A stretch of DNA of 6,851 bases, taken from assembly GCA_016650135.1 (NCBI GenBank), contig JAENWH010000102.1:1-6851 (forward strand), given 5' to 3'. The notes below the pieces were generated by a model that saw only the letters and a list, made by a program, of their open reading frames with translations, made no database searches and was not told the DNA's origin. Position numbers and translations under genes: made by a program. Each line of letters begins with the position of its first letter. Within the stretch, counting starts at the first letter, position 1. Positions 1 to 6,851 of this stretch are shown here, one piece after another. The stretch is from Peptostreptococcaceae bacterium. GTDB lineage: Bacteria > Bacillota_A > Clostridia > Peptostreptococcales > Anaerovoracaceae.

Positions 1-1496
1 AACTGCTCCACTTCATCAATGAATCCCGTACCCTGATAATAAAAAACATCATAATCATAGAAGGATTTTGTTTTTTTGTGCTCCGCATACCGGAAAGAAG
101 GATCCATCACAGACAGTAATCTTACCGCAGAAGAATGGGACTGCTCAGACGGAATCAGGTTAATTGTTTCATTCTGTCTCCATAGGGTGTTGCTATAACT
201 TTTTTCTAAAAGATTCAAAGCTTTCGTCTTGTAATTTGCTGAACTATCGAATTTACGGTCTATTTCGACTCCATAAATAATAGGTCTGGCAAAAGGAGGA
301 GCATCACTTTTCAGATGGTACGGTGGTATAACAGCTTTTACCTTGTTCCCTCTGATTTCTACCTCCACATTGTCTTTCAGCTCTACGTCGCCATCAATAA
401 GGGCAAGGCCTATCGCTCTCATCACTTTATCATCGGTAATTTTGCCTTCGAGACCATTACCTTCCGTCTTTAAATATGGCACCATTGTAGCACTAGTTAC
501 GTAACCTACTTCCTTGCCACCTTTGAAAACCTTGCAGCCTGCCCTAGCAACACCCTTATCAAGTAATGCTATTGGCCTTATTATTTTAGGCAAATCTGAC
601 AGATTGGAAAAATCTCTTTCCATTATCTTTTTAAAGCCTTCATACTGCTTAACCAAAGCTTTTCTTCCGATATAATCCCCTTTGGCATTTGCGAAGCTGA
701 CGGCAAATTTTGCTAAAGGACAAGAGAAAATTGGAATTTCGCTGCCGTAAATATCAATACCCAATTCATGACCATATAGAGGCAGTCCGGCTTCCAGTCT
801 TAATGTGTCTCTGGCACCAAGGCCTATGGCCATAGCGCCATGCTCAAGCAGCCATTCCCAAATTTCTGACGCATCAGAGGCTTTCATAAACAGTTCAAAT
901 CCCAATGGCTCTCCAGTATAGCCAGTCCTTGCAGCAAGCACTTCTTTCCCTTTAAAATCGAGAAAACCCAAAGCATTTTTTACAGGTTCTGTAAAATATA
1001 TGCTGCCGGTCAGTTTGCTGAGCACGTTCTTCGAATCCGGTCCCTGAACTGCAATCATCGCAAGCTCTTCAGATTTATTTATAATCGTTGCATCGAATTT
1101 CTCTATTACTTTGTTTAAATACTCCCAATCCTTTTCTATGTTGGAAGCATTAACAACAAGTAAATACTCATCTTCATAAAAGCGATAAAGATAAGCGTCA
1201 TCCACAGCCCCACCATTTTCATTCGGAATCATGGTATACTGTGCCTGCATAACATCAAGAGCAAAAACGTTATTAGTTAGGACATATTGCAGGAATTTTA
1301 CGGCTTCTCTACCAGATATAACGAATCTTCCCATGTGCGAAACATCAAATATCCCTGTCTTTTTCCTGGTGTAAATATGTTCTTCTACTATTCCAGAATT
1401 ATAATTGACCGGCATTTCCCATCCACCAAAATCCACTAGGTTTGCACCTGATTTTACGTGATTTTCATAAAGTATTGTTCTTTTTAGAACTTCCAT
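1..1496 (-). CDS. gcvT: GcvT-SHMT fusion: glycine cleavage T-protein joined to serine hydroxymethyltransferase (3' end beyond window)
   Basis: The frame is open from ATG at 1496 to the window edge (498 whole codons) with no stop, so the gene is cut by the window. Residues 1 to about 392 are a full GcvT: acidic pair D99-D100 after NENGG (the folate-site aspartate region), TGYTGE at 191-196, GLGARDTLRLEAG at 225-237, then the C-terminal barrel domain. T-protein releases ammonia from aminomethyl-lipoyl-GcvH and makes 5,10-methylene-THF. Instead of stopping, the frame continues into an SHMT N-terminus: RQNETINLIPSE (ending E451), YAEH at 470-473 and FYYQGTGFIDEVE at 485-497, matching the RQRETIELIASE, YAEG and YYGGxEYVDxVE blocks of GlyA. 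SHMT makes serine from glycine and methylene-THF. The SHMT part is divergent: YAEH replaces YAEG, and about 7 extra residues lie before the YY pair. AAGGAGG lies 8 nt before the ATG. It follows gcvH by 42 nt. The PLP-lysine region is outside the window. Confidence 0.9.
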   Translation of the reverse strand, partial: MEVLKRTILYENHVKSGANLVDFGGWEMPVNYNSGIVEEHIYTRKKTGIFDVSHMGRFVISGREAVKFLQYVLTNNVFALDVMQAQYTMIPNENGGAVDDAYLYRFYEDEYLLVVNASNIEKDWEYLNKVIEKFDATIINKSEELAMIAVQGPDSKNVLSKLTGSIYFTEPVKNALGFLDFKGKEVLAARTGYTGEPLGFELFMKASDASEIWEWLLEHGAMAIGLGARDTLRLEAGLPLYGHELGIDIYGSEIPIFSCPLAKFAVSFANAKGDYIGRKALVKQYEGFKKIMERDFSNLSDLPKIIRPIALLDKGVARAGCKVFKGGKEVGYVTSATMVPYLKTEGNGLEGKITDDKVMRAIGLALIDGDVELKDNVEVEIRGNKVKAVIPPYHLKSDAPPFARPIIYGVEIDRKFDSSANYKTKALNLLEKSYSNTLWRQNETINLIPSEQSHSSAVRLLSVMDPSFRYAEHKKTKSFYDYDVFYYQGTGFIDEVEQ

Positions 1497-1538: not shown

Positions 1539-1916
1539 CTATTCTTTGCAAAGCTCTATATATTCTGCTGCACTCTTAAGCAGCTTCAATTCATCCGGAT
1601 TGTCCATTTCAATATAGACCATCCAGTTTTCAAACGAATCCTTGTTCAAAAGCGCTGGATCGTCAACAATTGCTTCATTAATCTTTACAATTGTCCCTGA
1701 TACAGGCAGAAAAATATCGGAAGCTGCTTTTACAGATTCAACAACTCCTAAAGCCTCATCTTTATTTAGTTTAGAACCAATCTCTGGTAATTCAACATAA
1801 ACGATATCGCCCAAAGAATGCTGTGCATAATCAGTGATTCCTATATAAGCCATTTTACCCTCAACTTTAACCCACTCATGATTATTTGAATATTTCTGAT
1901 CTTCAATAATTTTCAT
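1539..1916 (-). CDS. gcvH: Glycine cleavage system H protein
   Basis: This 125-residue protein has the normal GcvH length. H-protein is the lipoylated shuttle that carries the aminomethyl group from glycine decarboxylase (GcvP) to T-protein in the cytoplasm. Visible family marks are the N-terminal HEW (13-15), the GITDYAQHSLGDIVYVELPE block (26-45) and the lipoylation site GVVESVKAASD, with K63 as the modified lysine. The start is supported by GGGAGG about 9 nt upstream. It lies 25 nt after serC and 42 nt before the gcvT-SHMT fusion, its direct partner. No gcvP or lipoate ligase gene is in the window. The protein appears complete and ordinary. Confidence 0.97.
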   Translation of the reverse strand: MKIIEDQKYSNNHEWVKVEGKMAYIGITDYAQHSLGDIVYVELPEIGSKLNKDEALGVVESVKAASDIFLPVSGTIVKINEAIVDDPALLNKDSFENWMVYIEMDNPDELKLLKSAAEYIELCKE

Positions 1917-1941: not shown

Positions 1942-3021
1942 TTAATTCTCTGCTTCGAACTTCTTCATGAAATTCGCAAGTTTAATTACACCTTCTGTCG
2001 GCATTGCATTATATATACTTGCTCTCATACCGCCAACAAGACGATGCCCCTTAAGTTCTACAAAATCGTTGGAAGCTGCTTCCTTTATGAATTTTGCATC
2101 CAATTCCTTATTGAGGGATACGAATGGTATATTCATTAAGGAGCGGTCTTTTTTTTCTACTGTTCCTCTGAACATCTTTGATTCGTCCAAGTAGTCATAC
2201 AATATACGTGCCTTTTCTTCGTTTATCTTTTGAAGTGCTGCCACACCTCCCATTTCCTTGACCCATTCAAATACAAGCTTGCATATGTATATACCGAATG
2301 CAGGAGGAGTATTGAACATGGAGTTCTCATCCGCATGGGTCTTGTAATTGAACATGGTAGGCGTTATATCCAAGGCTTTGCCAATCAGGTCTTTTCTGAT
2401 TACCGCCAGAGTAACCCCTGCAGGACCCATATTCTTTTGTGCGCCTGCGTATATCAAACCGAATTCGGATACATCATATACCTCAGATAGGATATTTGAG
2501 GACATATCAGCAACGATTGGTACATCTCCTGTGTCAGGAATCGCTGTAAATCTAGTACCTTCGATTGTATTGTTTGTGGTTATGTGAAAGTAATCCGCTT
2601 TAGGATTGAACTTGCTTTTGTCAAGAGCGGGTATACGGTTGTAGTTGGTATCTTCGGATGTTGCAACCACATTCACTGTGCCGTAACGTTTTGCTTCTTT
2701 GATTGCTTTGATTGCCCATGTGCCGGTATTTACATAATCCGCTGTTTTGTTTTCACTGTAAAGATTTAGTGGAACCATAGCAAACTGGCTCGATGCCCCA
2801 CCTTGCAGGAAAAGGACACTGTAATTCTCTGGTATAGCCATTATATCTCTGAGTACACTTTCAGCACCGTTGATTATTTCTTCATAAACCTTTGAACGGT
2901 GACTCATTTCCATTACCGACATTCCTGAATTATTGTAGTTCAGCATTTGCTTTTGCGCCTCTTTTAACACACTTACTGGTAGCATTGACGGTCCCGCCGA
3001 AAAATTGTAAATTCTTTCCAT
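1942..3021 (-). CDS. serC: Phosphoserine aminotransferase
   Basis: This 359-residue class V PLP aminotransferase has the full SerC length (about 360). It interconverts 3-phosphohydroxypyruvate plus glutamate and O-phosphoserine plus 2-oxoglutarate. Visible marks are NFSAGPSMLP near the N-terminus (6-15), SHRSK (40-44), QGGASSQF (73-80), the AD(M)SSN segment (171-176), the PLP lysine K196 in YAGAQKNMGPAG, and the C-terminal GHRLVGGMRASIYNAMP (325-341). AAGGAGA lies 8 nt before the ATG. It follows the DUF1015 gene by 47 nt and precedes gcvH by 25 nt, with no terminator in either gap, so it belongs to the glycine-riboswitch operon. Its usual role is serine biosynthesis. Placement under a predicted glycine-ON switch leaves open a reverse, catabolic role (inference). 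Neither serA nor serB is in the window. Confidence 0.97.
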   Translation of the reverse strand: MERIYNFSAGPSMLPVSVLKEAQKQMLNYNNSGMSVMEMSHRSKVYEEIINGAESVLRDIMAIPENYSVLFLQGGASSQFAMVPLNLYSENKTADYVNTGTWAIKAIKEAKRYGTVNVVATSEDTNYNRIPALDKSKFNPKADYFHITTNNTIEGTRFTAIPDTGDVPIVADMSSNILSEVYDVSEFGLIYAGAQKNMGPAGVTLAVIRKDLIGKALDITPTMFNYKTHADENSMFNTPPAFGIYICKLVFEWVKEMGGVAALQKINEEKARILYDYLDESKMFRGTVEKKDRSLMNIPFVSLNKELDAKFIKEAASNDFVELKGHRLVGGMRASIYNAMPTEGVIKLANFMKKFEAEN

Positions 3022-3068: not shown

Positions 3069-4310
3069 TCAGAAAAACCTATGTACAAACAACCCACTTC
3101 TTAGTTTAGGTTCAAACCATGTTGATTTAGGTGGCATTATCATTCCTGCATCAGCAACTGAAATTAAATCTTCTATAGTCGTGGGATACATGGCAAATGC
3201 CACTTTCATGTCCTGATCAACCCTTTTTTTCAGTTCCTCAAGCCCCCTTATCCCGCCAACAAAATCGATTCTTTTATCTGTCCTTGGATCTTGTATTCCT
3301 AAAATCGGGCCAAGCAAATTATTCTGCAGTATGGATGCATCAAGCCTTTCAATAACGTTATCGCAATCATAAGTCCCCCGTTTAGCAGTGAGTTTATACC
3401 ATTTTCCTTCAAGATACATGCCATATGAGTGCTTTTCCTTCGGCTTATACTGTCCAACTGATTCCTCGGCACTGAAGTTCTCTCGTATCTTCGTTAAGAA
3501 CTGTTCCGTTGTATAACCGTTCAGATCCGTGACTAAACGGTTATAGTCCATGATATAAAGGTCTTCATCCGGGAAGGCAACAGCTAAAAAGTAATTAAAT
3601 TCTTCGCAACCGCTGTAATGACCCGCGTCTTCTCTTCTTTTCAGGCCTACCTTTACAGAAGAAGCCGATCTATGGTGTCCATCTGCAATATAGAGATAAT
3701 CCATTGATTCAAATATTTCTTCAATTGTTTTAATTACAGAAGCATCGTTGATGTCCCAAACAATATGCGTTATACCGTCATCAGTTGTGAAATTGTAAAC
3801 TGGCTTGTTAAATTTGACCCAGTTATTTATTGTACTGTTTATTTGTTCGTTTTTACGGTATGTCAGCAAAACAGGTTCTGTATGCGCATCACAATAATCA
3901 AAATTGTTTATCCTGTCTATTTCTTTCTCTACTCTTGTAAGCTCATGCTTTCTGATAATATCATTTAGATAGTCATCAATGGAGGTACAGCCTACGATAC
4001 CCGTCTGGACCCGTCCCCACATTATTTGCCTGTATATATAGAGCTTTGGCTCTTTGTCCTGAATAAGGATTCCACTTTCAAGCATGGAATCAAGATTTTT
4101 TCTTGCCGTCTTATATACGATCTCATCATATGGATCGACCGAATCATCCAAATCGATTTCCGACCTTGCAATGTGAAGGAAAGAATATTCGTTTCCTTCT
4201 GCCATCTTCTTTGCTTCTTTCCGGTTCATAACATCATATGGTAAAGTTGCCACTTTATCTGCCAGCCCAACCTTGGGTCTTACACCTTTAAAAGGTTTGA
4301 ATCGTGCCAT
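3069..4310 (-). CDS. DUF1015 family protein (COG4198), possible amino-acid-metabolism enzyme
   Basis: This 413-residue cytoplasmic protein has no signal peptide or membrane segment. It is recognised as DUF1015 from the N-terminal FKPFKGVRP (4-12) and PYDVMN (24-29), the middle KHELTRVEKEIDRI (121-134), the DGHHRSAS motif (210-217) and the C-terminal MPPKSTWFEPKLRSGL (392-407). To my knowledge the family has no assigned function. The DGHHR motif resembles the ParB/sulfiredoxin-fold signature of ADP- or ATP-dependent free-serine kinases (SerK, SbnI). Together with serC immediately downstream, this suggests a role in phosphoserine metabolism, but that is inference. AGGAGG lies 6 nt before the ATG and overlaps the stop codon of the small ORF upstream. 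It is the first long gene after the glycine riboswitch. The family call is firm; the function is open. Confidence 0.85.
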   Translation of the reverse strand: MARFKPFKGVRPKVGLADKVATLPYDVMNRKEAKKMAEGNEYSFLHIARSEIDLDDSVDPYDEIVYKTARKNLDSMLESGILIQDKEPKLYIYRQIMWGRVQTGIVGCTSIDDYLNDIIRKHELTRVEKEIDRINNFDYCDAHTEPVLLTYRKNEQINSTINNWVKFNKPVYNFTTDDGITHIVWDINDASVIKTIEEIFESMDYLYIADGHHRSASSVKVGLKRREDAGHYSGCEEFNYFLAVAFPDEDLYIMDYNRLVTDLNGYTTEQFLTKIRENFSAEESVGQYKPKEKHSYGMYLEGKWYKLTAKRGTYDCDNVIERLDASILQNNLLGPILGIQDPRTDKRIDFVGGIRGLEELKKRVDQDMKVAFAMYPTTIEDLISVADAGMIMPPKSTWFEPKLRSGLFVHRFF

Positions 4311-4320
4311 AATAATCCTC

Positions 4321-4407
4321 CTAATTCAACTGTTTCTTTATTATTTCAACAATTTCCTTGCCAATCTTTTCCTGCCTCCCTCGAGATCTCAGCAACATTT
4401 TCCCCAT
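4321..4407 (-). CDS. Small ORF, 28 codons, unknown function, first in the riboswitch operon
   Basis: ATG at 4407 begins MGKMLLRSRGRQ and the frame stops at TAG (4321-4323). A good Shine-Dalgarno (GGAGGG) lies 6 nt upstream, and an in-frame TAA lies just before it, so this is the natural start. The peptide is strongly basic (Lys/Arg-rich) and probably helical in its second half (EKIGKEIVEIIKKQLN). Its stop sits inside the ribosome-binding site of the DUF1015 gene, 10 nt before that start, an arrangement typical of translational coupling. It begins 42 nt after the riboswitch terminator. It could be a true small protein, a leader peptide that raises DUF1015 translation, or a chance ORF. I recognise no family. 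Confidence 0.5.
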   Translation of the reverse strand: MGKMLLRSRGRQEKIGKEIVEIIKKQLN

Positions 4408-4449
4408 CTTAATCCCTCCATTTACATGTTAAAAATTGTTTAGCGCACC

Positions 4450-4478
4450 AAAAAAGCAGAAAGCTATTGCCTTCTGCT
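4450..4478 (-). terminator. Riboswitch expression-platform intrinsic terminator
   Basis: On the minus strand a 10-bp stem (AGCAGAAGGC with GCTTTCTGCT, including one G-T wobble) closes a 4-nt AATA loop and is followed directly by six T residues. The first two bases of the stem (4477-4478) are also the last bases of the P1 helix of aptamer II. P1 and the terminator therefore compete, and glycine binding should favour read-through. This is the attenuator that controls the downstream operon. Confidence 0.85.
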
Positions 4479-4650
4479 CTGTTATTAACCTGAGAGATTC
4501 GTTCAGCTTTCTGAAGTTGCCCCTTCGGTGCTACGCTTTCCAGAGTTATGTCCGATTACGGTCCATTTTACCTGAGATCATCACTGATATTATGGCTTAA
4601 CATCAGTTTCTTCCTTCGGTGCCACATAATATGTAGACTCTCCCGTAATC
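4477..4650 (-). promoter_or_regulatory. Tandem glycine riboswitch (two aptamers)
   Basis: Aptamer I spans about 4554-4650. Its P1 is an exact 8-bp pairing of GATTACGG (4643-4650) with CCGTAATC (4554-4561), and inside it lie GGGAGAGTC, GGCACCGAAGG and ATCTCAGGTAAAATGGAC. Aptamer II spans about 4477-4545. Its P1 pairs CTCTG (4541-4545) with CAGAG (4477-4481), and inside it lie GCACCGAAGGGGCAA and AATCTCTCAGGT. The linker is very short (about 8 nt between the P1 helices), as in classical tandem glycine riboswitches. These are the conserved core sequences of the gcvT-motif RNA. The element directly precedes an operon with gcvH and gcvT, the classical target. The overlap with the following terminator predicts activation by glycine. 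Confidence 0.95.
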
Positions 4651-4674
4651 ATCATCCATCCTTTTTATTTTTTT

Positions 4675-4822: not shown

Positions 4823-4863
4823 GTAAAAGCCGACTGATTAAATATATCAGCCGGCTTTTACTT
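4821..4863 (-). terminator. Intrinsic terminator after sdaAA (likely bidirectional)
   Basis: Arms 4821-4838 and 4846-4863 pair over 18 bp with one mismatch around a 7-nt loop (4839-4845). The GC-rich core (GCCGGCTGAT) is flanked by A-rich and T-rich tracts, giving GGCTTTTACTTT on the minus strand. The hairpin overlaps the sdaAA stop codon by two bases. Its near-symmetry means it could stop transcription from either side. It separates the sda unit from the riboswitch operon. Confidence 0.85.
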
Positions 4864-5731
4864 AACATTTCATCTTCTTAGTTATATCCTCTGCAAATGG
4901 CGTTGTTGCTAACCCTTCTTTGCTTGTTTCTTTAAGGCAGGTTGGAATCAATTTACCAATTCTTTTCATGGCATCTATTACCTGATCAGGCGGAACAACA
5001 CTTTTAATTCCAGCAAGTGCCATTTGAGAAGACACAACTGCATTAACGGCTCCTGCTACATTTCTTTTTATACAAGGCACTTCTACCAATCCTGCGACGG
5101 GATCACATGTTAGACCAAGCATATTTTTAATAGCCATGGCTGCTGCATTAACAATGCTTTCATTATCTCCACCTTCCAGATATGTTAACCCTCCAGCTGC
5201 CATTGCACTAGCAGAACCGATTTCAGCCTGACATCCACCCTCAGCACCAGAAATACTGGCATTATTTGCTAAAATTTCACCAATACCAGCTGAAACAAAT
5301 AGAGCTTCAATTATCTTGTCTTCGTCTACTTTATTTTGCTCCTCATAAGTAATATATATGGAGGGAATTACTCCACATGATCCAGCGGTAGGTGCGGCAA
5401 CTATACGTTTCATGCACGCGTTTGATTCTCCCATTTTTATAGCTTTTTCAATAGTATTTGGCAAAAATTTCCCGATAAGACGTTCGGATTTAGGTTTATA
5501 CAGTTTGAATTTTTCTCCGTCACCACCCGCCATTCCGCTAGCCGAACTCAGTTTTGCATCATAACAACTGTCTGCCTTTTTCATAGTTCTATACATGCAT
5601 CTCATATTTTCAAAGGTTTCCTCTCTTGAAACCATTCTTTCTTGCATATCATCTTCCATAATAATTTCCCAAAACTTTTTATTATCATCTTCTGCCTTTT
5701 TAATAATTTCTTCCAAAGATTTAAAACTCAT
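4862..5731 (-). CDS. sdaAA: L-serine dehydratase, iron-sulfur dependent, alpha subunit
   Basis: This 289-residue catalytic subunit of the oxygen-sensitive [4Fe-4S] L-serine dehydratase converts L-serine to pyruvate and ammonia. Visible marks are TAGSCGVIPS (115-124), SGAEGGCQAEIGSASAMAAGG with C167, and TCDPVAGLVEVPC with C209 and C220; C167, C209 and C220 are the likely cluster ligands. The protein ends in cysteine (C289). In the Legionella enzyme a C-terminal cysteine binds the cluster as an internal inhibitor, so the same may apply here. Length is near the B. subtilis SdaAA (about 300). The ATG overlaps the sdaAB stop as ATGA, so the two are translationally coupled. The upstream Shine-Dalgarno is an unusual run of seven G residues (complement of 5740-5746). 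A terminator follows at once. Confidence 0.96.
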   Translation of the reverse strand: MSFKSLEEIIKKAEDDNKKFWEIIMEDDMQERMVSREETFENMRCMYRTMKKADSCYDAKLSSASGMAGGDGEKFKLYKPKSERLIGKFLPNTIEKAIKMGESNACMKRIVAAPTAGSCGVIPSIYITYEEQNKVDEDKIIEALFVSAGIGEILANNASISGAEGGCQAEIGSASAMAAGGLTYLEGGDNESIVNAAAMAIKNMLGLTCDPVAGLVEVPCIKRNVAGAVNAVVSSQMALAGIKSVVPPDQVIDAMKRIGKLIPTCLKETSKEGLATTPFAEDITKKMKC

Positions 5732-6402
5732 AAGCTAGTCCCCCCCTTCACATTTAGACAAATCACTTTACTAATTCCTTCCAAACGCTCTAATCTTTCT
5801 ACATATTTTTTTGGTATGTCATGATCACATTCGAGTACCATTACAGCGTTACCACTTCGTTTTTCACGGTGTAGTTCCATTTTTGCAACGTTAATTGATT
5901 TATTGGCTAATATTGCAGTAACTTCAGAAATATAGCCTGGTTCATCATGATTACGAATTACCAAAGTTGAATGCTCGCCTGAAAAATTTGTTGGCAATCC
6001 ATCAATCTGGGCTATATTAATTCGACCCCCACCAAGAGATTCACCTATTAATTCTAACTTCTTACCACTGACACCTTTCAAACTTAGCATCACCGAATTC
6101 GGATGTCCGTCCTTAATTTCTGCCTCTCCAAAAATAAGTTGCATTCCCGATTCCTTTGCTATATCAAAACTACTTGGAATATCATCATTATCAGGTTTCA
6201 TTCCAAGTAATCCTGCTACTAATGCTTTTGAAGTTCCATGCCCTTTTCCAGTTGCCAAAAACGAACCATAAAGATATATACCTGCTTCAGCAATATTTTC
6301 AGCCATAAGCTTTCTAGCGATATATCCGATTTTTACGGCTCCTGCAGTATGAGAACTGGATGGGCCAATCATTATAGGCCCGATAATATCATATATATTC
6401 AT
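5728..6402 (-). CDS. sdaAB: L-serine dehydratase, iron-sulfur dependent, beta subunit
   Basis: This is the partner subunit of SdaAA, about 224-226 residues, the usual length. The N-terminal domain carries IIGPIMIGPSSSHTAGA, the signature of the family. The C-terminal third (about residues 146-215, STLVIRNHDEPGYISEV onward) is an ACT domain, a small-molecule-binding fold that in this family may sense serine. Two in-frame ATGs are available, at 6408 and 6402. GGAG lies only 2 nt before the first but 8 nt before the second, so 6402 is preferred, giving MNIYDIIGP. The first would add two residues (226 total). It overlaps sdaAA by 4 nt. A transposon end lies about 150 bp upstream. Confidence 0.95.
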   Translation of the reverse strand: MNIYDIIGPIMIGPSSSHTAGAVKIGYIARKLMAENIAEAGIYLYGSFLATGKGHGTSKALVAGLLGMKPDNDDIPSSFDIAKESGMQLIFGEAEIKDGHPNSVMLSLKGVSGKKLELIGESLGGGRINIAQIDGLPTNFSGEHSTLVIRNHDEPGYISEVTAILANKSINVAKMELHREKRSGNAVMVLECDHDIPKKYVERLERLEGISKVICLNVKGGTSL

Positions 6403-6513
6403 ATTCATTGCTCCAATTTAACTTTCAATCATAATTTTAAGTATTTATTTGTTTGTTTAAGCTATTTCTTTTTTATTTTCACTACTTTTGTGACTTAATA
6501 AGTGAATTTTAAC

Positions 6514-6554: not shown

Positions 6555-6595
6555 GGGTTGCTGAACAAAAGCGGTTATGCGCTGATCAGCAACCC
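6555..6595 (-). terminator. IS-end hairpin, probable transposase terminator and terminal repeat
   Basis: GGGTTGCTGA (6555-6564) pairs exactly with TCAGCAACCC (6586-6595) across a 21-nt loop that contains the transposase stop codon (TAA, 6575-6577). The outer copy GGGTTGCTGAACAAAA probably marks the IS terminus at about 6555. Such subterminal hairpins stop transcription at the end of many insertion sequences. The T-tract after it on the minus strand is broken (CTATTTTGTTATTT), so termination may be leaky. The opposite terminus is outside the window, so the inverted repeat cannot be confirmed here. Confidence 0.55.
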
Positions 6596-6851
6596 TTTTA
6601 TCATAATCCTGAACATGAAAATGATGTTTTTACATGTTTCTAAAATTGGCAGCAAAAAGACGCGCAGTCTTTTTTCCAGATTCATCACGATAAACGTTAG
6701 ATGAATGCTGGTTTCACTTGTTTCCTTCATTTTGGCATATATCCGGCCAAGGCCGTAAGTTCGTTTGCTTTTTCCAAACTTGCTTTCAACCGCGTTACGT
6801 TCACCTGCTTCCATCTTTTCCTGCAGGCACTGTGTTCTATACACTTGTTTG
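6575..6851 (-). CDS. Transposase, C-terminal fragment (IS5/IS1182-type), cut by window edge
   Basis: The open frame continues to the window edge without a stop, so the apparent GTG start at 6844 is probably internal. About 91 residues are visible. The stretch ERNAVESKFGKSKRTYGLGRI fits the last catalytic block of IS4/IS5-superfamily DDE transposases: the glutamate of NAVESKFG is the expected third catalytic acid, and the lysine and YGL follow at the usual spacing. Next comes the conserved SETSIHLTFIVMNLEKRLR tail, then a short hydrophobic end (RVFLLPILETCKNIIFMF). The visible part shows no frameshift or internal stop. Whether the whole transposase is intact cannot be judged. Confidence 0.85.
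   Translation of the reverse strand, partial: KQVYRTQCLQEKMEAGERNAVESKFGKSKRTYGLGRIYAKMKETSETSIHLTFIVMNLEKRLRVFLLPILETCKNIIFMFRIMIKGLLISA

Follow-up and report, generated by a model that had tools for sequence, protein, structure and literature searches.

Does the reading frame that runs off the end of this contig join the T-protein of the glycine cleavage system (GcvT) to a serine hydroxymethyltransferase (SHMT) in a single polypeptide and, if so, what would such a protein do? We analysed a stretch of 6,851 nucleotides from a Peptostreptococcaceae bacterium, referred to here as the window. It seems to be an entire contig, since the longest contig listed for its DUF1015 protein also measures 6851 bases. 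The gene lies on the minus strand (3..1496), starts 42 bases downstream of gcvH and is represented by its 5' part. Frame analysis gave 498 amino acids from an ATG, stop-free up to the window edge, with 41 and 43 stops in the other two minus-strand frames over the same stretch. GcvT occupies residues 1 to about 393, a linker about 394 to 430, and the N-terminus of SHMT begins at about residue 432, the window edge falling at residue 498. Residues 4-390 exceeded the cut-offs of two GcvT models (NF001567, 342 bits, cut-off 300; TIGR00528, 283 bits, cut-off 236) and this half was also matched by Pfam PF01571 and PF08669. For residues 432-498 the match was to the beginning of NF000586, an SHMT model, at 24.2 bits (E 1.2e-5); with just 67 residues of the domain present, this score falls far short of the 335 bits set as the cut-off for a whole protein. 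The Pfam SHMT model did not report this stub at E 0.001, and the stub alone passed no cut-off; the SHMT-start motifs quoted in the first-pass annotation are all present in the window protein. Across the junction (44 codons, 394-437), pN/pS between the window and five relatives was 0.18-0.27, compared to 0.13-0.19 for the whole fusion frame. These low values indicate that the junction is a translated linker constrained by purifying selection. Thus the open frame, the model matches and the junction pN/pS together confirm that the frame passes unbroken from a complete GcvT into an SHMT N-terminus, and that the GcvT-SHMT fusion is genuine. A separate SHMT made from an internal start was considered and rejected, since ATG, GTG or TTG codons occur within residues 381-470 only at 427, 463 and 464. 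TTG427 precedes the SHMT start and, by eye, has no strong ribosome-binding site, so that a minor second product from it seems unlikely.

The first-pass annotation had expected the frame to continue through SHMT with its PLP lysine. The window itself is visible only to residue 498, and it is in the relatives that the expectation was borne out, with about 380 more codons and the lysine kept. In 24 other genomes the fusion frame runs into a full SHMT, giving about 880 amino acids in all, and complete-frame relatives scored 105-153 bits against PF00464 (cut-off 27). This set comprises 13 loci from a contig scan, supplemented by genomes from searches with the SHMT half; at one locus (L012) the sequence starts inside the T-protein at a contig edge. 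The contig scan, which took one genome per species, found 16 loci with a relative of the window protein, 13 of them with a frame of 865-891 amino acids from the matching start. In the metagenome-assembled genome CTSoil_079 (L010) the frame is broken at the T-protein/SHMT junction (5990-6200), soon before the contig end, and in the other two (L014 and L015) the match is confined to the GcvT half (at most 37% identity, query residues 5-394). Named Sporomusa, Acetobacterium and Clostridium genomes are among the fusion hosts, and six of the 24 carry the gene on contigs of 3.4-5.2 Mb. In one further genome (G797) the fusion gene is divided between two contig ends. One scanned contig (L009, JAJGRE010000001.1) is titled Calditrichales bacterium MX18-03 and was drawn within the class of a Clostridium thailandense genome; its name looks wrong or outdated.

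How widespread is the fusion? Two broad genome draws searched with the Sporomusa SHMT half, each counting its centre genome, yielded the fused type in 2 of 398 and 6 of 391 genomes, four of the latter six being already known from earlier searches. This agrees with the claim that GcvT and SHMT are separate in most organisms. Further searches gave 4/12, 9/40, 5/198 and 11/67 genomes (the 11/67 draw overlapping the 9/40); since the draws were centred on, and included, known fusion genomes, these are not unbiased frequencies. Every full-length SHMT-half match at E 1e-60 sat in a frame of 878-959 amino acids, that is, in a fusion. The database search proposed in the first-pass annotation was likewise positive: among the best 120 of 7997 proteins scored, 91 carried both the T-protein and the SHMT Pfam domains (counted from the list). 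Source names among these best 120 included Clostridia, Family XIII, Desulfobacterota-type, Planctomycetes-type and others, and many of the entries were partial. Fused proteins are usually labelled glycine cleavage system aminomethyltransferase GcvT; the architecture is thus already in the databases, under the name GcvT. A full-text literature search, with subscription journals mostly outside its reach, returned no description of a GcvT-SHMT fusion, although one may exist elsewhere, and the accessible parts of PMC10327494, PMC8407422, PMC12827605, PMC6436200, PMC12674515, PMC3519856, PMC12704722 and PMC5120207 mention none.

Conservation of the catalytic residues was followed in 54 aligned rows including the window, whose SHMT is visible only before residue 498. 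On the T-protein side, Asp99, Asp100, Asn116, Tyr193, Glu196, Arg229 and Arg233 were present in 54/54 rows, and all but one of the 23 columns checked were invariant. We take the conserved aspartate to be catalytic (compare the D97N entry 3a8k). On the SHMT side, the E. coli GlyA residues examined presumably have active-site or folate-site roles. The equivalents of Tyr55, Glu57, Tyr64 and Tyr65 were found in every one of the 54 rows, those of Asp200 and His203 in 53 (one gap), the PLP lysine (Lys229 equivalent) in 51 (two gaps, one Arg) and that of Arg363 in 49 (four gaps, one His); Gly125 and His126 were kept wherever the residue aligned. Several positions differ from E. coli: Arg235 is replaced by Gln in 51/54 rows, Arg372 by Phe in 45/54 and Asn347, in the folate site, by Gln in 49/54, the last of which leaves the use of THF by the SHMT half less than certain. 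Relative to E. coli GlyA, the fused half also carries inserts of 7, 12 and 14 residues beside the active site. The 880-residue Sporomusa protein was modelled with AlphaFold2 (mean pLDDT 84, pTM 0.82), and the weakest stretches (466-488, 555-565, 708-713 and 805-807) fell on the SHMT insert loops. Foldseek matched this model to the T-protein 1woo (TM 0.91) and to the SHMT 4uqv_A (TM 0.84), both normalised by the target. In common with solved T-proteins (e.g. 1woo, 1yx2), the fusion has a whole T-protein with its fold, conserved aspartate and folate-site residues; unlike them, it has a C-terminal extension and a linker leading into SHMT, and its GCV_T_C domain is matched only partly.

Searches against solved structures separated the SHMT half from bacterial GlyA. 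The Sporomusa fused half scored 181 bits with 4uqv and 4bhd, identified in the Foldseek search as SHMT of Methanocaldococcus (Methanococcus) jannaschii, and no more than 106 bits with the remaining SHMTs, whereas GlyA of the same Sporomusa genome scored 611 bits with bacterial SHMTs and did not have 4uqv among its best 60 of 98 matches. The M. jannaschii enzyme, with about 31-33% identity and an aligned PLP-lysine motif, is the best solved relative of the C-terminal half, which differs from it in being bacterial, joined to GcvT and provided with inserts near the active site. This methanogen enzyme uses H4MPT. Bacterial GlyA (from E. coli or the same Sporomusa) shares with the fused half the SHMT fold and most active-site residues, at about 29% identity. 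In a 50-row tree the GlyA side of a 100/100 branch consisted of E. coli and one Sporomusa row only; the tree was built without archaeal SHMT rows, so the description as methanogen-like rests on the structure searches. By these comparisons the SHMT half is placed in a separate, methanogen-like SHMT lineage, which the first-pass annotation had not foreseen; the search scores and the tree rule out that it is an ordinary GlyA. In the same tree, nine SHMT-only proteins were intermixed with 39 fused ones, implying 8 changes of state, at least 5 of them forced by supported branches. This suggests that the link has been lost or gained repeatedly, unless some of the SHMT-only proteins are pieces produced by gene calling. 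Several members of the fused lineage that consist of SHMT only have their own methionine (P0161, P0208, P0207, P0216, P0232 and others), and P0161 stands for 51 sequences, the longest contig among them being 193 kb. These are possibly natural splits, or else gene-calling pieces. Since standalone SHMT-type proteins of the fused lineage exist, the fusion is not strictly required. Two genomes (G860 and G853; loci L099 and L100) hold a third SHMT-like gene in frames of 418-435 amino acids, matched at 184-190 bits and 28-30% like either GlyA or the fused half.

The neighbours in the window, all on the minus strand, belong largely to glycine and serine metabolism. Next to the fusion lies gcvH (1539..1916), encoding the lipoyl H-protein of the glycine cleavage system (NF002270, 153 bits, cut-off 117), and beyond it serC (1942..3021), encoding phosphoserine transaminase (NF003764, 554 bits, cut-off 253; TIGR01364, 523 bits, cut-off 444). 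A gene for a DUF1015 protein (3069..4310) follows, and then a glycine riboswitch, probably tandem (4475..4659). Its first aptamer (4549-4655) matched RF00504 with 54.8 bits (cut-off 32), on the same strand as the fusion and upstream of it; the two-aptamer model RF03166, spanning 4475-4659, fell short of its cut-off (73.5 bits against 110). Upstream of the riboswitch, domain and family models identified the alpha and beta subunits of an iron-sulfur L-serine dehydratase, sdaAA (4862..5731) and sdaAB (5728..6408), and, at the contig end, the C-terminal remnant of an IS5-type transposase (6575..6850). Between the riboswitch and the DUF1015 gene (about 4311-4420, minus strand) there is a frame of about 28 codons with, by eye, a good ribosome-binding site, which may be a leader peptide or may have arisen by chance. 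A promoter and terminator scan of the window found nothing beyond chance (24 against 21.3 expected, and 4 against 4.3); its list lacks the terminators that can be made out by eye behind sdaAA and behind the riboswitch.

The DUF1015 protein gave a confident model (pLDDT 91.8), with a predicted fold closest to the free serine kinases SerK and SbnI. The nine Foldseek matches at E <=0.001 were five SerK entries, three SbnI entries and a conserved hypothetical protein of Pyrococcus furiosus (1vk1), with TM 0.51-0.64 by target and 10-14% identity; an ADGHHR motif is conserved in the protein. According to the accessible parts of two papers, SerK and SbnI convert serine to O-phosphoserine (PMC5120207, PMC12704722), and 'DU1015' is named among proteins of the ParB-CTPase fold (PMC12704722). 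The predicted fold suggests that the DUF1015 protein may interconvert serine and phosphoserine beside serC. If it is a serine kinase, the window would hold a second exit, from serine through phosphoserine to phosphohydroxypyruvate, or the reverse route. Because none of the 24 other loci showed a DUF1015 gene near the fusion in the stretches retrieved, we do not regard this gene as a conserved partner.

We then compared these surroundings with the 24 other loci. Either or both of gcvH and gcvP flank the fusion in 15 of them; sdaAB and sdaAA both follow in seven and sdaAA alone in one more. Acetobacterium and its relatives have the order gcvH, fusion, gcvPA, gcvPB, sdaAB, sdaAA. In 8/24 loci the fusion lies away from gcv genes, and L012 has no recognised neighbour. 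A glycine riboswitch on the same strand, upstream of the fusion or of its operon, was found in the window and in 15/24 loci, and was not detected in the remaining nine (L001-L004, L012, L096, L097, L098 and L103). It directly precedes the fusion gene in L091, L092, L101 and L102, and in the first two of these the fusion is a lone gene. We asked also which other copies of the two enzymes the hosts possess. A T-protein domain search of 17 genomes found a second, normal T-protein (>300 bits) in seven, the fusion only in seven, and in the remaining three the fusion with weak matches (<=116 bits) in frames of 455-506 residues, so that 10/17 genomes have no strong T-protein match besides the fusion, none of the others exceeding 116 bits. 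An SHMT search of 25 genomes (the 24 with an intact fusion, and G010) found a separate GlyA in 21, 20 of them among the 24; in four (G011, G012, G1009 and G1010, all drafts that may be incomplete) the fusion was the only SHMT match. The presence of a normal GlyA in 20 of the 24 fusion genomes indicates that housekeeping does not depend on the SHMT half.

What reaction, then, might the fusion carry out? Lipoyl-GcvH, the product of the neighbouring gene, would be loaded by GcvP and pass its aminomethyl group to the T domain, which would release ammonia and form 5,10-methylene-THF; the C-terminal, PLP-dependent SHMT would then use this with a second glycine to make serine. With GcvP and Lpd, the sum would be 2 glycine + NAD+ -> serine + CO2 + NH3 + NADH. 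Plentiful glycine would turn the gene set on through the riboswitch, and serine would leave by way of serine dehydratase as pyruvate. The same sequence of glycine cleavage, SHMT and serine dehydratase forms the glycine-serine-pyruvate pathway of Clostridium acidurici, there with separate enzymes, gcvT and glyA being the distinct genes Curi_c00740 and Curi_c17240 in the accessible part of PMC3519856. We assign a probability of about 0.7 to the reading that the fusion is a bifunctional enzyme of a glycine-to-serine route, with serine passing on to pyruvate, the activities, the direction of flux and the kinetic coupling being those we infer. That both halves are active, and mainly from glycine to serine, seems likely. 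The fold and family of both halves, the residues kept, the constrained junction, the gcv and sda neighbours and the glycine riboswitch support the bifunctional reading; counted against it are GlyA in 20/24 genomes, a standard T-protein in 7/17, the substitutions and inserts in SHMT, the 9/24 loci without a riboswitch, the 8/24 away from gcv genes and the standalone relatives.

A bifunctional enzyme need not channel its intermediate. The fusion may only fix equal amounts of the two enzymes, with methylene-THF travelling through the bulk pool; this is compatible with the bifunctional reading and has, in our estimate, slightly better than even odds. Separate SHMT-type members are mixed with the fused ones on the tree, as if the link were convenient rather than essential, and the linker varies in length and sequence among relatives; however, long retention across distant hosts suggests a benefit beyond dosage. 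True channelling of methylene-THF between the halves is doubtful. A little more doubtful is the specific proposal of a 'two glycines to serine' enzyme, in which methylene-THF would be handed directly to a dedicated SHMT domain of methanogen type, off the common one-carbon pool, with the additional loops next to its active site, at about 466-488 and 540-565, shaping the hand-over.

Alternatively, the fusion could run chiefly in the reductive sense: CO2, ammonia and two methylene-THF would yield first glycine and then serine, as they do when acetogens use their glycine synthase routes. Sporomusa and Acetobacterium, whose species are the named hosts that favour this idea, are acetogens, which obtain methylene-THF through the Wood-Ljungdahl pathway. 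At the Sporomusa and C. thailandense loci (together L001-L004) and at L096, moreover, the fusion is a lone gene with no glycine riboswitch detected, and the reactions are reversible (PMC3519856, accessible part). Nevertheless, the regulation that can be read, in the window and 15/24 loci, is a glycine riboswitch, an element by which glycine cleavage is switched on in Streptomyces griseus (cited in the accessible part of PMC12674515), and a serine dehydratase lies beside the fusion in seven of the 24 loci as well as in the window. We consider a mainly reductive role improbable. It is more improbable still that the C-terminal half is some other PLP enzyme of the SHMT fold, such as an aldolase or transaldolase joining glycine to a different carbonyl partner. 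Its identity to E. coli GlyA is just 28-30%, with the three inserts of 7, 12 and 14 residues and with Gln at the Asn347 and Arg235 equivalents, the hosts usually keep a normal GlyA, and the matches include an L-threonine transaldolase (7k34; 95 bits, Foldseek rank 36). Yet its top match in both sequence and structure is the methanogen SHMT 4uqv, at 181 bits, the equivalents of Glu57, Tyr64, Tyr65, His126 and Gly125 are kept wherever aligned, and its place after a T-protein, whose product is methylene-THF, favours a folate substrate. Finally, a chimaera of assembly or a frame error joining two genes, to which the ending of the 6851-base record inside the gene and the broken frame of L010 might point, has practically no chance and is ruled out by the same open frame in 24 further genomes, six on contigs of 3.4-5.2 Mb, and by purifying selection at the junction. 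With the PLP lysine kept as well, the protein is no remnant either.

Both glycine fermentation and the reductive glycine pathway are built around glycine cleavage and SHMT, and it has long been asked whether the T-protein and SHMT cooperate physically. As a natural fusion that is often its host's only strong T-protein match, the protein offers a direct test object for methylene-THF channelling and a ready-made part for one-carbon engineering. If methylene-THF were indeed handed directly to the SHMT domain, glycine breakdown in acetogens, whose energy-yielding pathway also runs through methylene-THF, would be insulated from carbon fixation, and such insulation would account for the retention of a second SHMT alongside GlyA. 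The plain GcvT label on these 880-residue proteins conceals a second enzyme, and metabolic models of Sporomusa and Acetobacterium may therefore assign serine synthesis to the wrong gene.
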